Part shown: one piece after another, positions 10,059-63,994 of the stretch
Numbering within the stretch: the stretch's first letter is position 1
Layout: each line of letters begins with the position of its first letter
NCBI GenBank assembly: GCA_013204585.1
Contig: JABMNL010000038.1
Location: 21,498 to 85,497, forward strand
Direction of reading: 5' to 3'
Source of the DNA: SAR202 cluster bacterium
GTDB taxonomy: Bacteria; Chloroflexota; Dehalococcoidia; Lucifugimonadales; UBA3495
Length of the DNA: 64,000 bases
Notes under the pieces: model-generated
Told to the model about the DNA's origin: nothing
The model's input: the letters and a program-made list of their open reading frames with translations, nothing else
Database searches by the model: none
Translations under genes and position numbers: made by a program

Positions 10059-10673
10059 ATGACCGACATGCCCTCTACCTTGGTCACCGTTTGGTTCGAT
10101 TACACCTGACCCCATTCCCATATCGGGCTAGGAATGCTCGAAGAACTGGCGTCCACAGTGGACTTTGAAATCGACCGCCGACCATTTCTGCTGCGACCAG
10201 ATGCCGTTGAAGACGGCATTGGTTCTATGGATTCGTCTATGGATTCGCAGGAACGCGAGAGCAACGGACGCCGACCGCCCCTCTACCGACCCGGCGAGGG
10301 CTTGTCGGATACTGAACCAGCATCCAACCGGGCGCTTAGCACCCTACTCGTCCATGCGGCAACGGCCTACGCCAAAGAGAGCGGTCTAGACGGCCAGTTC
10401 TACCGGTCAGCCGCCAAAGAGTACTGGGAGCAAGGCACTGACCTTGGGCTTTTGTACACCATACGCAGAATCACCGTTTTGGCTGGGTTGGACTGGGGGG
10501 ACCTGTGGCCCAAGCTACAGTCCGGCAGCTACCACAACCTGGTACTGGCCCAACACGCCGAGGCCAAAGCTGCGGGAGTTACCCAGACGCCTTCGTTTCA
10601 GGTAAACGGAAGGCTGCACTCCGGGGCCATAACCAAGGATGAACTTCGCGCGGCGGTTCAAACGACCAGATAA
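10059..10673 (+). CDS. Candidate selenoprotein: DsbA/FrnE-like thioredoxin-fold oxidoreductase with in-frame TGA (10107..10109) at the active-site Cys position
   Basis: Translation through the TGA: MTDMPSTLVTVWFDYT-U-PHSHIGLGMLEELASTVDFEIDRRPFLLRPDAVEDG...; the first half restores beta1 plus the CxxC motif of DsbA/FrnE; cis-Pro motif GVTQTPSFQVNG retained downstream; CATTCC/GGAATG hairpin right after the TGA. Confidence 0.8.
10113..10136 (+). promoter_or_regulatory. Putative bSECIS hairpin
   Basis: CATTCC-(CATATCGGGCTA)-GGAATG, perfect 6-bp stem starting 4 nt after the TGA, 12-nt loop containing GGG. Confidence 0.6.
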
Positions 10674-17326: not shown

Positions 17327-17559
17327 TATCTACGGTCACACCGCAGTTTCGGAGGACAGCTAAACGAGCGAGTCTCGCTGATGCCCGGCTCCACGATTTG
17401 AGGCACACACATGCATCTTTGATGCTTCAGCAAGGGATCTACGTCAAAACCATCAGTACGAGATTAGGGCACTCGAGTGTTGCATTCACGATGGACACCT
17501 ATACTCATTTAATGCCGGGCATGCAGAAGCTGGCTATAGAAAAGAATGAGGATGGATGA
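17293..17559 (+). pseudogene. C-terminal remnant of a tyrosine recombinase/integrase
   Basis: Frame gives ...STVTPQFRRTAKRASLADARLHDLRHTHASLMLQQGIYVKTISTRLGHSSVAFTMDTYTHLMPGMQKLAIEKNEDG*: HxLRHTH, LGHSS and Tyr motifs; no N-terminal or catalytic-Arg1 region. Confidence 0.85.
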
Positions 17560-19262: not shown

Positions 19263-19339
19263 TGGTAGGGCGTAGGGGATTTGAACCCCTGATCTCCGCC
19301 TTGAGAGGGCGGTGTCCTGGGCCGCTAGACGAACGCCCC
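19263..19339 (-). tRNA. tRNA-Glu (anticodon CTC), CCA encoded
   Basis: GGGGCGTTCGTCTAGCGGCCCAGGACACCGCCCTCTCAAGGCGGAGATCAGGGGTTCAAATCCCCTACGCCCTACCA; cloverleaf with CTCTCAA anticodon loop. Confidence 0.93.
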
Positions 19340-20321: not shown

Positions 20322-21326
20322 GTGGACATCGGCAAGTTCCCTCCCTTATTACTAGAGAAGCTGCTGCAAAAGACAGGGGTATCTGACCCCCGGGTGCTGC
20401 TGGGCCCCGGCGTGGGCAAGGACGCGGCGGTAATCGACCTGGGCGACACGCTGTTGGTGGCCAAGAGCGACCCCATAACCTTCGCCACCGACCGCATCGG
20501 CTGGTACGCCGTGCAGGTGAACGCCAACGACGTTGCCTGCACCGGGGGAATACCGCGCTGGTTCCTGGCCACGCTGCTGGTACCGGAGCGCTTCACCGAA
20601 GACCAGGCCGAAGAGCTGTTTAATCAGGTGCTGGACGCCTGCAACGCCATTAATGTCACCTTAATCGGCGGCCACAGCGAGGTTACCCACGGAATCGACC
20701 GTCCCATCGTGTCCGGCACCATGCTGGGCGAGGTGGCGCGGGACCGCCTAATTAAGACTGGCGGCGCCCAGGAAGGCGACAGCATCGTCGTGACCAAAGG
20801 AATCGCCATCGAGGGCACCGCGCTCTTGGCCCTGGAACGGGCCGACGATCTGCGGAAGGCCGGAGTGCCCGACAGCATAATTACACAAAGCGCAGAACTA
20901 TTAAATGTACCAGGCATAAGTGTAATAGAAGACGCTCAAATCGCCTGCGCTACTGCACAAGTACATTCTATGCATGACGTGACAGAAGGTGGCTTGATAA
21001 CTGGACTGCGGGAAGTCGCCGCGGCCTCGGGCCTGGGGTTGGCCATTGAGGAAGGGAGCGTGCCGGTGTTGCCGACTACGAGCCAGGTGTGCGCGGCCTT
21101 GGAACTGGACCCGTTGGGACTGCTGGCATCGGGAGCGCTCATAATTACGCTTCCGCCAGAGGACGTTACCTCTTTACTCACTGCATTGGAGAAAAAGGGA
21201 ATAGATGGCTGGGAGATCGGAATAATGATGGCGAAAGAAGAGGGGCTGGTATCCATTGGCCGCCAGGGCGAGGTTGAGCTTCCCCAGTTCAGCCGCGACG
21301 AACTGGCCCGTTACTTCAGCCAATAG
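20322..21326 (+). CDS. AIR synthase-related/HypE-like protein
   Basis: GPGVGKDAAVIDLGD, NDVACTGGIPRWFLATLLVPE, GGHSEVTHGIDRPIVSGTMLG, SMHDVTEGGL. Confidence 0.85.
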   Translation: MDIGKFPPLLLEKLLQKTGVSDPRVLLGPGVGKDAAVIDLGDTLLVAKSDPITFATDRIGWYAVQVNANDVACTGGIPRWFLATLLVPERFTEDQAEELFNQVLDACNAINVTLIGGHSEVTHGIDRPIVSGTMLGEVARDRLIKTGGAQEGDSIVVTKGIAIEGTALLALERADDLRKAGVPDSIITQSAELLNVPGISVIEDAQIACATAQVHSMHDVTEGGLITGLREVAAASGLGLAIEEGSVPVLPTTSQVCAALELDPLGLLASGALIITLPPEDVTSLLTALEKKGIDGWEIGIMMAKEEGLVSIGRQGEVELPQFSRDELARYFSQ

Positions 21327-51724: not shown

Positions 51725-51852
51725 TTGGTCCGCTCCTTCCCGTCAGTATTCTTTCGATCCCGGATAATACCGAGGGCTAATCATATTATTAAATCATCTG
51801 AATGCCCAACTTGGCCTGTGTCCAGGGGTCGGGCCTTGCGAAGTTTACAATT

Positions 51853-57296: not shown

Positions 57297-57626
57297 ATGG
57301 CAGAACCAATAGAAGTAAACGACGATACTTGGGAAGAACTGGTACTAAACTCGAAGACACCGGTCATGGTGGACTTTTGGGCCGAGTGGTGTGGTCCCTG
57401 CAAAATGATTGCCCCTGCGGTCCACGATATGGCCGTAGATTATGACGGTAAGATGGTTGTCGCCAAGCTAGACGTGGACGCTAGCCCCAAAGTGGCCATG
57501 CAATACAGCGTACGCAGCATCCCGGCCTTGATCTTCTTCAAGGGCGGACAGCCCGTCGACCAAATCATCGGCGCAGTGCCCAAGGGCGCGCTGAAGAAAA
57601 AGGTCGACTCCGTACTAGAAAGCTAG
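57297..57626 (+). CDS. trxA: Thioredoxin
   Basis: PVMVDFWAEWCGPCKMIAP, SIPALIFFKGGQPVDQIIG. Confidence 0.97.
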   Translation: MAEPIEVNDDTWEELVLNSKTPVMVDFWAEWCGPCKMIAPAVHDMAVDYDGKMVVAKLDVDASPKVAMQYSVRSIPALIFFKGGQPVDQIIGAVPKGALKKKVDSVLES

Positions 57627-57717: not shown

Positions 57718-57814
57718 GGGAGTGGATGGGGCCCGGTGGCTCTTGCGGACTTCAAATCCGTTATGCCTCGTGACGAGCGGGGTAGGTGGGTTCGACTCCC
57801 TCGCACTCCCGCCA
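57718..57814 (+). tRNA. selC: tRNA-Sec (anticodon TCA), CCA encoded
   Basis: GGGAGTGG...TGCGGACTTCAAATCCG...long variable arm GCCTCGTGACGAGCGGGG...GGTTCGACTCCC..CACTCCC-G-CCA; 97 nt, 6-bp D stem with 4-nt loop, discriminator G: hallmarks of bacterial tRNA-Sec. Confidence 0.93.
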
Positions 57815-57827
57815 GACAAAATCTAGG

Positions 57828-57870
57828 CATAAAACAAGGCCCTGGAACTCTTCCAGGGCCTTGTTTTATG
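57828..57870 (+). terminator. Long hairpin (20-bp perfect arms, 3-nt loop) after selC
   Basis: cataaaacaaggccctggaa-ctc-ttccagggccttgttttatg. Confidence 0.85.
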
Positions 57871-58115
57871 CGGGTGGCCGGAGTGGTGATTTGGGGCCGA
57901 TGTGCACAGGGCGTGCCAAGACCCAAAAACAGGTGGTAAGCTAGAATTTAATGCATTCGAGTCTTGCTGAAGGCATAGCGTCAGCCGAAATGGAGAATCT
58001 CGGATAATATGTCATCCCTGACTATAGTGGCAGTCCGCTTCCGGTAACCCCATCCGGCTTAAACCTGGGGATGCCTGGGGGCGTTAGAACATTCACATTC
58101 AAAGGAGCAAAAGTA

Positions 58116-58223
58116 ATGGGTGAAAAGAATGGTAAAAAAAATAAATCCCAAAAAGAAAAACAGACCGCTGCAACGCATACGCTAAAGGAAAAACGTAAAT
58201 TGAAAAAAGAGAAGTCGCTCTAA
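58116..58223 (+). CDS. 35-aa lysine-rich basic microprotein
   Basis: MGEKNGKKNKSQKEKQTAATHTLKEKRKLKKEKSL*; RBS aaaggag 8-10 nt upstream. Confidence 0.65.
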   Translation: MGEKNGKKNKSQKEKQTAATHTLKEKRKLKKEKSL

Positions 58224-58306
58224 GGAGCTTTCACTACGCGGACGAGGGAACGAGTCTGTTGTTCGGTGGGGCCAAGTGGTGTCGCTGGGAATGCCGTCGG
58301 TATGGC

Positions 58307-58888
58307 TTAAGACGTACCCGCTTTCTCCAGCAACGCCAGGGCCAACTCTGCCGTTTTAGTGGTGTCATAAAGGGCATCGTGGGCCAGGCCACGATCAAAT
58401 GGTACTCCGTAATAATCACACGCTTCACCTAAACCCAGGTATTCCGTGAGACCCAACCTCGCTCGCGGAAGATGGCCCAGGCTACGCACGTCAATCACCT
58501 TGAAGGTGAACGGTACAACTCTGTCAATACGCCTGAATGCATCTTGGAGAAACTTGGTCTCGAAGTCCGCACCCCAAGCGGCGAGTACTGTTTCGTTCCA
58601 ATTCACCCCACGGCCAAAGTCTTCCAATGCCAGCTTGGCCGAAATCCCCTCGGCTTGAAGCTTTTCAATGGTTAGCCCGTTCACTTTCATTGCCGCCTGA
58701 TCTCGCTGATCCCACCGCGTGGGTAGGATGTACTCGGACATCGTCAGGCCGGGAATTATGGTTTTCTCTACGGTGTCTATTACTACCCGGGCAATCTGGA
58801 TGATTTCATGCCTCTCAGGTTCAAGACCGGTGCACTCTAAGTCAGTAACACACCAATATCTAGCATTTGTCGGTTTATATGTGACCAC
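58307..58888 (-). CDS. 3'-5' exonuclease (DnaQ/RNase T-like, DEDD)
   Basis: WCVTDLECTGLEPERHEIIQIARVVID; AWGADFETKFLQ; HDALYDTTKTAELALALL. Confidence 0.9.
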   Translation of the reverse strand: MVTYKPTNARYWCVTDLECTGLEPERHEIIQIARVVIDTVEKTIIPGLTMSEYILPTRWDQRDQAAMKVNGLTIEKLQAEGISAKLALEDFGRGVNWNETVLAAWGADFETKFLQDAFRRIDRVVPFTFKVIDVRSLGHLPRARLGLTEYLGLGEACDYYGVPFDRGLAHDALYDTTKTAELALALLEKAGTS

Positions 58889-59169
58889 GCGTTAAAGTCC
58901 CTCAAGGCCGAGTCAAAGGCTCCAATCGATTTATAACACACTTAGCTTTGATTGTTCTCAGTTAATTTCATATATATCGTCAGTGCCGCCTGATCTTTCC
59001 TGTTGGCCGGTCCCTCGAGTTCGACCTTTTATTGGGCCGTGGGCAACTATTTTTTCTGGCTCCAGAATGTGCACGTTCGTTGCAACTTCGATTGTGTTGG
59101 CGGGTGCTTTTAGCTTCAACCAGAGAACGGTACAACATCGTCCGCCACTCCTAAACACGGTTTATAAGT

Positions 59170-59236
59170 GACTTCGAATCCGTCATACCTCGTGACGAGC
59201 GGGGTCGGTCGGTTCGACTCCCTCGCACTCCCGCCA
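59170..59236 (+). repeat. 67-nt copy of the selC 3' half (anticodon loop to CCA), integration-site duplication
   Basis: gacttcgaatccgtcatacctcgtgacgagcggggtcggtcggttcgactccctcgcactcccgcca; 62/67 identical to 57748..57814. Confidence 0.92.
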
Positions 59237-59602
59237 GCATTTTTTAGGCACGAAAAGGTGTTTTTGAGACCCCTGCTCTGGAAACAGATGTTGGGGTCTT
59301 TTGGTTTTTGCCAATATGCCCACGGATTGTCCACCAACTATTTCTGAGGCCGGTTCGCTCGGCACAAAAATCCAATCGGTATGATTCGGCAGGTATTTAT
59401 ATTATCCCAAGTCACCTGTCGTACCGTATCAAACCGCGTGACGCATAATTTCGCTTTGATTTAGTTAGTCTGTAGTCATTGACTGATGCATCTTAGTATC
59501 CAGTGGCATTCCGAAGCTGTAAGATTCGGGCTAGAAATCAAACTGCCGATACGAGTATACTTCCTAACTAAATTGATAATTGCGCGAGGGTGCTCAGAAT
59601 AA

Positions 59603-60138: not shown

Positions 60139-60528
60139 TTGGTTTTCGATTTGTTCGGTCCGGTCCGGGGAAGTTCTAGGCCCAGTAAAGCTGAAAAGGA
60201 CGCTCTCAGCGCGAAACAAAAGGACCGCTGCAATTACTGCGGGAAACGCGGGTTGGCGTACTTGGAAGTCGACCACAAGAATCCTGTGGAGAGAGGTGGT
60301 TCGAATGGAATCGCCAACAAACAGTTGCTATACGGTCCGTGTAACAAAAGGAAAGGGGCCATGACAGATGGGGAGTTTCGCCGACGGTACAAGCTACCAG
60401 GTGTACGAAGTGTAGGCGGCCCCCCGGCCAGAACCATTCCGCAGTCGTACTTTGAAGAAATCAGCAAGGCCGTTGGCAAACGGAAAGCTACAGCTCGGAA
60501 GAAAGCAGCAGATGATTGGTGGTGGTGA
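60139..60528 (+). CDS. HNH endonuclease
   Basis: RCNYCGKRGLAYLEVDHKNPVERGGSNGIANKQLLYGPCNKRKG. Confidence 0.88.
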   Translation: MVFDLFGPVRGSSRPSKAEKDALSAKQKDRCNYCGKRGLAYLEVDHKNPVERGGSNGIANKQLLYGPCNKRKGAMTDGEFRRRYKLPGVRSVGGPPARTIPQSYFEEISKAVGKRKATARKKAADDWWW

Positions 60529-60608
60529 TGTTTACCGTGTGGCCTTGAGAGACGGTATTCCGAGCCAGACCCGCACAAAATTGACTAGTGTGACGTTAGG
60601 TGTGAACG

Positions 60609-61190
60609 ATGAGACGATTCCACACTAGGGTTCCAGTAAATTTCAATATGGCGGCCTCGGTCGCTGTTACCACGCTCCTTGTTCTCCTTTCCATTGTGTT
60701 GATTTGGCTAATCAAATGGGGTGACTGCAACCTCCACGAATCGGGCCATTACGTAGTAGGCCGTTTACTCGGAATCCCTATCGCCGATATTGATTGGTGC
60801 GGCCCAAGGTCGTTGAAAGGTGAGGTCATCCCGAAAATCAGCGAGAATTCGGTCCGATTTAGTTTGTTCTATTTTTCTGGGGGCTTGATTTCGGGTGCAG
60901 GATTACTAGCCATCAATTTATTTATATTCGCTAATGTGAACAAGGAGACCCGGAGTCTAATCTGGCTCTTCTTCGGACTTCTCATTACTATCATTGCGAC
61001 GACCGAGCTCTTCTTAGGGCTCTTTGAAGGCATTGACCATGTTGCCTACCAACAAAGTGGAGGCAAGCCCGCTCTCTGGGCGATTCCCATAATTGTCGGC
61101 ATTGCGCTCCACGGGTTGACCATAAGGAATACGACATGGGGTAGGTACTTCAAGTACTTGTTCAGGAAACGTAATACCTCCGAGCCATGA
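60609..61190 (+). CDS. Membrane protein with HExxH-like (HESGH) motif, possible site-2-protease/M50-like
   Basis: CNLHESGHYVVGRLLGIPIADIDW; 4-5 TM segments. Confidence 0.55.
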   Translation: MRRFHTRVPVNFNMAASVAVTTLLVLLSIVLIWLIKWGDCNLHESGHYVVGRLLGIPIADIDWCGPRSLKGEVIPKISENSVRFSLFYFSGGLISGAGLLAINLFIFANVNKETRSLIWLFFGLLITIIATTELFLGLFEGIDHVAYQQSGGKPALWAIPIIVGIALHGLTIRNTTWGRYFKYLFRKRNTSEP

Positions 61191-61217
61191 ACAGCCAGGA
61201 CACCAGAAGAGGAGAAT

Positions 61218-61778
61218 TTGGAGATGGTTGAAGAGTCTCATTGCGCTAAAATCCATTGCGATAAACCGGGTACCTACGCCAAACCCCTCTGCTACGAGCA
61301 TTGGAGAGACTTCGACCGCTTCTACATCCACGAATGCGACCGGTGTCATCGGTTCCACGAGATGGTAGGAGAATTCAACGAAGAGGACGAACCCCAGTTG
61401 TGTTTCGACTGTAACCGGGGAGATGCCGTTGAGGTCGTAGCGCATGGTCCGGTAGAACACGAAACGCGTTACCTATACATTCTTAGGCTCAATAATGGCA
61501 AATTCTACGCGGGTCAAACCGATGACTTGGAAATGCGCCTACGAGAACACCAAGATGGTTCGAGTAGGTCGACTGCCGGGAAAGCTGGCAAGCTTGTATG
61601 GTTTGAGCGTTGGTATGGCAACAAGAAAGAATTAGACGCCGAAGAACGAGAGTTAAATAGGGACGCGGTCAGAGCACCATGGTCGATTAGCCGGATGGTG
61701 ATTGAGTGGCAGCGACCATTGCGTCTAGTGGACTTGAATGAGCTATCCGTCGCGCCGCCTGGTCCAACCACAAATTAG
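61218..61778 (+). CDS. Zinc-binding N-terminus plus GIY-YIG nuclease domain
   Basis: CDRCHRFHE...CFDCNRG; YLYILRLNNGKFYAGQTDDLEMRLREHQDG. Confidence 0.88.
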   Translation: MEMVEESHCAKIHCDKPGTYAKPLCYEHWRDFDRFYIHECDRCHRFHEMVGEFNEEDEPQLCFDCNRGDAVEVVAHGPVEHETRYLYILRLNNGKFYAGQTDDLEMRLREHQDGSSRSTAGKAGKLVWFERWYGNKKELDAEERELNRDAVRAPWSISRMVIEWQRPLRLVDLNELSVAPPGPTTN

Positions 61779-61800: not shown

Positions 61801-62208
61801 CTAAATACCCATTTCAATCGTCGGCAACCCCGCTGCTTTCCAGCCGCGCATGCCGCCGTCCATGTAGGTTACGTTGGTGAATCCCATTTGTTTGAGCACT
61901 TGAGCCCCAAGCGCGGCCATTTGGCCGCCCCCTCAAGTGACGATGACCTGTCGCGAACGGTCCGCCAAGCGCGGGTCACGCAAGCGCTCGGCTATCTCCA
62001 GGTCGGCACGCATCGGCAGCGAGCCCAAAGAAATCATCGCCACGCCAGGGGCCCTATCTTGCTGCGGTACAGACTCGGCGTCTCGCACCTCAATCAGCAT
62101 CGCTTCCTGGTCGTCCTGAAGCCGCTGTTGCGCCTCGGCGGGGGAAACTCCCACCACTTCGGCCTTTGCCTCGTTCACCATATCGGTCCAGCTCTTGGCC
62201 ATGGTCAT
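61801..62208 (-). CDS. Candidate selenoprotein: rhodanese-domain protein with in-frame TGA (61933..61935) at the catalytic Cys position
   Basis: Translation through the TGA: ...AEAQQRLQDDQEAMLIEVRDAESVPQQDRAPGVAMISLGSLPMRADLEIAERLRDPRLADRSRQVIVT-U-GGGQMAALGAQVLKQMGFTNVTYMDGGMRGWKAAGLPTIEMGI*; read-through completes the canonical rhodanese fold. Confidence 0.87.
61913..61928 (-). promoter_or_regulatory. Putative bSECIS hairpin
   Basis: GCGGCC-AAAT-GGCCGC starting 5 nt after the TGA; alternative CCAA/TTGG stem places a GG-containing loop further downstream. Confidence 0.5.
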
Positions 62209-63857: not shown

Positions 63858-63904
63858 GTCATCTCATCGGGCAACATGATTCTCATGTTGCCCGATGAGA
63901 TGAC
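63858..63904. repeat. Perfect 22-bp inverted repeat with 3-nt loop downstream of ferredoxin
   Basis: gtcatctcatcgggcaacatga-ttc-tcatgttgcccgatgagatgac. Confidence 0.95.
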
Positions 63905-63916
63905 ATTGCCTCAAAA

Positions 63917-63994
63917 CTGTCATTCTGAGCGTAGTGAAGAATCTTCCAAGCACCGCCTTGGCAGACCCTTCGCTACGCTCAGGGTGCCATGCGG
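63917..63994. repeat. Dispersed intergenic repeat, copy 2 (inverted relative to 19058..19152)
   Basis: ctgtcattctgagcgtagtgaagaatcttccaagcaccgccttggcagacccttcgctacgctcagggtgccatgcgg. Confidence 0.8.

Follow-up and report, generated by a model that had tools for sequence, protein, structure and literature searches.

A tRNA-Sec gene and probable selenoprotein genes in a SAR202 cluster bacterium of the Dehalococcoidia

Results

The selC locus

The window, a stretch of 64,000 nucleotides from contig JABMNL010000038.1 of a SAR202 cluster bacterium (assembly GCA_013204585.1), contains a gene for tRNA-Sec, selC, with a thioredoxin gene on its 5' side and a small islet on its 3' side:

57297..57626, plus strand: trxA, thioredoxin, the conserved upstream neighbour of selC (Pfam PF00085, 111 bits)
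57718..57814, plus strand: selC, tRNA-Sec, anticodon UCA (ARAGORN; Rfam RF01852, 66.4 bits; identical copies in relatives)
57815..59169, no strand assigned: islet between selC and the partial copy, ~1.4 kb, with an RNase_T exonuclease ORF
57827..57871, plus strand: strong hairpin just 3' of selC, possible terminator (21-nt perfect inverted repeat)
58307-58888, minus strand: RNase_T exonuclease ORF of the islet (Pfam PF00929, 64.7 bits)
59170..59237, plus strand: partial copy of the 3' half of tRNA-Sec, putative att-like integration scar (93% over 68 nt; repeat search, blastn)

ARAGORN reported a tRNA-SeC with anticodon tca at 57718-57814. As a test of the fold we used Infernal with the Rfam model RF01852; the match (57718-57810) covered the full model, and its score lies above the gathering score of 47 (E 2.4e-11). 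The anatomy read from the sequence comprises the UCA anticodon in the loop CTTCAAA, a D stem of 6 bp with a D loop of 4 nt, a long variable arm and a discriminator G followed by an encoded CCA, 97 nt in total. An earlier sequence-only reading of this DNA had given these coordinates and this anatomy, and had placed trxA immediately 5' of the tRNA; it was right on each count. A trxA homologue also stands 5' of selC in 18 of 20 relatives' loci. A terminator scan listed the hairpin at 57827..57871, with a T tail for the minus strand alone. The window's tRNA-Sec gene is genuine and of an already known kind, and it is detectable by standard tRNA finders; in calling it 'previously unannotated' the sequence-only reading went too far.

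Conserved mismatches in the acceptor/T arm

The acceptor/T arm of selC has the length of 13 bp (8+5), and 2 of these 13 positions are conserved mismatches: a G-G at the eighth acceptor pair and a U-U at the second pair of the T stem. We asked whether these mismatches could mark a degenerate or non-functional copy of the tRNA. The sequence-only reading had suspected both of them and had raised a broken fold as grounds for refutation; the mismatches are indeed present, yet the Rfam match stands above the gathering score and the two pairs are conserved among relatives. The identical 97-nt tRNA occurs in 8 of the 20 relatives' loci that were fetched around selC (genera g1 and g2), and among 41 distinct alleles from the whole order the G-G is found in 23 and the U-U in 30. 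Moreover, no better selC of this genome appeared among the matches listed. A degenerate copy is thus very improbable: with the G-G and the U-U conserved throughout the order, neither points to a broken selC, and, judged from the alleles compared, both are lineage features rather than decay.

The tRNA-Sec family was matched in all 118 genomes of the order that were searched and in 107 of them above the cut-off; the latter count is the meaningful one, because at the loose threshold control genomes gave tRNA-Sec matches as well. One relative (G006) has two full tRNA-Sec genes, on contigs C87 and C33, each with trxA, which may reflect a strain mixture in the assembly. The relatives include Dehalococcoidia/Chloroflexi MAGs, for example UBA2158, and an ALOHA isolate, and these names suggest that the lineage is marine.

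Selenium machinery

The source genome assembly is fragmented (3.13 Mb in 76 contigs). It contains selA (TIGR00474, 570.9 bits, cut-off 267.9), selB (TIGR00475, 261.8 bits, with the winged-helix domains SelB-wing_2 and SelB-wing_3) and selD (TIGR00476, 371 bits), all above the NCBIfam cut-offs. The sequence-only reading had allowed that a genome lacking selB or selD would speak against it; both genes were found. selB is broken at two contig ends, C49, which holds the N-terminal part, and C12, and the two pieces are most likely one gene split between these contigs. Further matches of ~395-450 aa were rejected as additional SelB copies because they are EF-Tu. selD has one in-frame TGA, in the motif CAGU. 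An AIR-synthase-like gene in the window (20322-21326) was rejected as selD, as it scored 84 bits against a cut-off of 125 and has no in-frame TGA. The word 'module', which had been applied to selC and two candidate selenoprotein genes of the window, did not hold: as much as 52 kb separates these loci, the contigs with selA, selB and selD are different ones, and there is no gene cluster.

UGA-containing genes of the window

Two genes of the window carry an in-frame TGA at a redox-active position, each followed by a hairpin:

10059..10673, plus strand: DsbA/FrnE-like probable selenoprotein, FDYT-U-PHS, TGA 10107-10109 (Pfam PF01323, 77.1 bits)
10123..10141, plus strand: candidate SECIS hairpin of the DsbA/FrnE-like gene (6-bp stem, loop UAGGAAU, not the classical loop)
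61801..62202, minus strand: rhodanese-like selenoprotein, VIVT-U-GGG (UxxG), TGA 61935-61933 (Pfam PF00581, 57.0 bits)
61896..61914, minus strand: SECIS-like hairpin in the rhodanese gene (stem of 7 bp; loop GGGCU, starting at the 26th base after the UGA)

Both had been proposed as Sec genes; the rhodanese is secure as such, with its conserved TGA, while the DsbA is probable only. In the rhodanese gene the UGA, which is conserved in homologues, falls at the catalytic Cys position of the domain. Eight closely related species-level genomes (that of the window included) retain the TGA, and Cys replaces it in 3 other close homologues as well as in more distant ones; over all homologues aligned at this site we counted 22 TGA and 16 Cys and no other state. 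The hairpin is 94.6% paired (share of alignment cells) over 8 distinct TGA homologues, with the loop GGGCN, compared with 37% for the same region in Cys homologues. On this comparative evidence we regard the assignment of the rhodanese as a selenoprotein as secure. In the same part of the window, a perfect 22-nt inverted repeat with a 3-nt loop (63858-63904) lies 3' of a ferredoxin-like gene, and another long inverted repeat follows at 63918-63989.

For the DsbA/FrnE-like gene, FrnE is the nearest solved structure to the product (E 2.2e-10), and DsbA homologues aligned at the U site have 20 TGA and 10 Cys, again with no other state. UGA is not conserved in the gene's own subfamily, in which all 10 close orthologues fetched have Cys. 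In the tree, eight Cys genes form the sister group of the window gene, and the outgroup has Cys too. A paralogous UxxC DsbA subfamily has Sec across the order, and only there is the UGA conserved. With a lone Sec among Cys orthologues, the window gene could represent a recent gain, retention accompanied by two losses, or else a nonsense mutation or an error in sequencing. The last of these, a recent change of TGC or TGT to TGA with the remainder of the Sec system as described above, would account directly for the Cys orthologues and for the position in the tree, and it agrees with a candidate SECIS loop that is non-classical, with no G in its first two positions. On the other hand, the frame is intact on both sides of TGA 10107 and the Pfam match is full, and the DxxUP motif fits a described Sec family (PMC13188914). 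In addition, the hairpin of the window gene has all 6 of its 6 pairs, while the Cys orthologues average 60% and none is complete, and the Sec paralogues carry a hairpin with a GG loop at the same place (86% paired with the window gene included). We therefore consider a mutation or error unlikely, though it keeps an appreciable share of the probability, and the DsbA/FrnE-like gene a probable selenoprotein on its sequence features. Covariation in the hairpins was weak in both the rhodanese set, where it lay within the shuffles, and the DsbA set, as shuffled alignments often equalled the observed value; the conserved SECIS-like hairpins are supporting evidence, not proof.

Codon-usage scans of the window gave further in-frame TGAs, for example at 51745, 9273 and 61188. 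These were rejected: they have no redox motif, and such candidates resemble upstream extensions or joined neighbouring genes.

We also considered whether UGA might have been reassigned throughout the genome, giving a variant code, or might be decoded through leaky suppression, as might be supposed from the many genes with an in-frame TGA. However, TGA ends 7 of the 37 open frames in the window that span 230 codons or more, and the four gene ends that had been cited as TGA stops (14311, 54984, 60528 and 61190) are all TGA. Furthermore, the in-frame TGAs coincide with redox-active Cys sites, and selA, selB, selD and tRNA-Sec are all there, so that general reassignment or suppression has a negligible probability. 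The parts of the Sec system are present, and TGA and Cys exchange at the U sites of the two window genes, with only these two states seen there. The claim of a working UGA recoding system that is site-specific, with TGA a normal stop elsewhere, is thereby supported as far as gene content and alignments can speak.

Selenoproteins elsewhere in the genome

A codon-based scan, which covered 442 kb (the window and 20 stretches, many of them picked around known matches), together with a search for the peroxiredoxin family gave at least 14 convincing selenoprotein genes; counts obtained from such searches and sampled stretches are lower bounds. These genes encode SelD, three DsbA-like proteins, two rhodanese-like proteins, one UGSC protein (NCBIfam NF041046, above the cut-off) and seven peroxiredoxin-like proteins with U at the active site, in UxxC motifs and in one case UxxU. 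Three further TGA-bearing peroxiredoxin matches were left out of the 14. On contig C40 (22974-24673), three consecutive peroxiredoxin-like genes each have a TGA at the active-site Cys position (UxxC), and on contig C20 (35506-35805) a peroxiredoxin-like gene has two in-frame TGAs in the motif UVPU and is probably a double selenoprotein. No TGA was present in the CMD/AhpD genes, the molybdopterin oxidoreductases or the classical thioredoxins of this genome, and there is therefore no Sec formate dehydrogenase among the molybdopterin oxidoreductases. Genomes with at least six selenoprotein genes have been defined as selenoprotein-rich (PMC5029168); with at least 14, the present genome is selenoprotein-rich.

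The islet and the partial tRNA copy

The 25-nt core of the tRNA-Sec repeat occurs only twice in the window, where none would be expected. Partial 3' copies of tRNA-Sec are also present in 3 relatives (L044, L050 and L053), at 1.1 to 6.3 kb from selC, and the cargo enclosed differs among the four genomes (that of the window included): in the relatives it consists of an alpha/beta hydrolase, of lanthipeptide synthesis genes, and of isocitrate dehydrogenase with DUF520. Most loci have conserved genes 5' of selC. On the 3' side no gene is common to the loci within the window's genus, while shared downstream genes do occur in six loci that belong to other genera of this family.

Could the copy at 59170-59237 be a tandem duplication of the 3' end of selC rather than a scar of integration? 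The window gave no integrase match close to selC, and weak similarity partly extends past the CCA, as a duplication would allow. Nevertheless, the copy begins in the anticodon region and the strong similarity stops just after the CCA, the downstream flanks diverge shortly after GCCA, and the three relatives' copies enclose differing cargo. We consider a duplication rather unlikely. Most likely, the repeated 3' half is a trace of small elements that once inserted at selC without damage to the tRNA, and by analogy with E. coli, selC is probably an integration hotspot. With no integrase gene close to selC in the window, the islet is a remnant at best.

Two observations concern other mobile DNA in the window. 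HNH endonuclease and GIY-YIG genes occupy 60139-61778, between the partial tRNA copy and the rhodanese gene, which suggests more mobile DNA there. A fragment of a tyrosine integrase (17329-17511) lies ~1.8 kb from a tRNA-Glu gene (19263-19339) and is possibly a second tRNA-linked remnant.

Discussion

Taken together, the data make it highly probable that the genome has a functional tRNA-Sec with SelA, SelD and SelB, which would serve the rhodanese, probably the DsbA/FrnE-like protein, and other selenoproteins; the 3'-half repeat at selC most likely marks past insertions. In the pathway that we propose, the selC tRNA would be charged with serine, and SelA would turn the seryl-tRNA into Sec-tRNA with selenophosphate supplied by SelD, itself a probable selenoprotein. 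SelB would then carry the Sec-tRNA to UGA codons that have a SECIS hairpin on their 3' side. Clients in the window would be the rhodanese-like selenoprotein and probably the DsbA/FrnE-like one, and elsewhere in the genome many peroxiredoxin-like and other selenoproteins. The enzymology of these steps is established knowledge of SelA, SelB and SelD. In bacterial tRNA-Sec the acceptor/T arm also serves to keep EF-Tu away, and the conserved mismatches could possibly affect the discrimination between SelB and EF-Tu. They are a natural experiment on which pairs of the acceptor/T arm are required by SelB and by EF-Tu.

Sec use in Chloroflexi was already known (PMC4959059, PMC5330540). The phyla named as selenoprotein-rich are Deltaproteobacteria, Clostridia and Synergistetes in one survey, the main text of which does not mention Chloroflexi (PMC5029168), and Thermodesulfobacteriota, Synergistota and Clostridia in a 2026 review (PMC13188914). 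In the literature searched, we found no description for this group of selenoprotein richness, of the tRNA-Sec mismatches or of selC islets. We tentatively propose, with slightly less than even confidence, that a marine Dehalococcoidia order is selenoprotein-rich, that its tRNA-Sec is functional with two non-standard pairs that are conserved and that its selC is a hotspot for islets with small cargo. This would widen the list of selenoprotein-rich lineages to an order in which tRNA-Sec is essentially universal. It would also matter for annotation, as standard gene callers truncate or miss TGA-containing redox genes of this kind.

Compared with known systems, the tRNA resembles bacterial tRNA-Sec (RF01852) in its anticodon, its 6-bp D stem and 4-nt loop, its long variable arm, its G-CCA end and its 8+5 arm, but differs from the standard form in the two arm mismatches that are common in the order. 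The authors of Secmarker reported 12-bp (7+5) variants, one of them in Dehalogenimonas (PMC5330540); the mismatched 8+5 form is a different variation. We found no difference from the bacterial SelA/SelB/SelD system except that the genes here are dispersed and form no single operon.

Genomic islands insert at selC in E. coli (PMC6174562). As there, insertion would have used the 3' half of a tRNA-Sec that remains whole, and a direct repeat of its 3' end flanks foreign genes; unlike there, the islets are about 1-6 kb, no integrase was found and the phylum is different.

DsbA and rhodanese-type selenoproteins have been reported from ocean metagenomes (PMC2398784), and the 2026 review lists rhodanese UxxG and DsbA-like DxxUP families (PMC13188914). 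The window's rhodanese is like the UxxG selenoproteins (PF00581; forms 2 and 4) in having U at the catalytic Cys, and it falls below every cut-off of the NCBIfam rhodanese models, which makes it a separate subfamily by that library. The DsbA/FrnE-like protein shares the DSBA domain and DYT-U-P with form 2 of the DsbA-like selenoproteins (PF01323, DxxUP) and with FrnE; in contrast to both it has U-P-H-S, with Ser for the second active-site Cys, and in contrast to form 2 its close orthologues have Cys in place of Sec. Both Sec proteins belong to listed families, and we therefore regard the finding as a genuine, new representative of a system already known.
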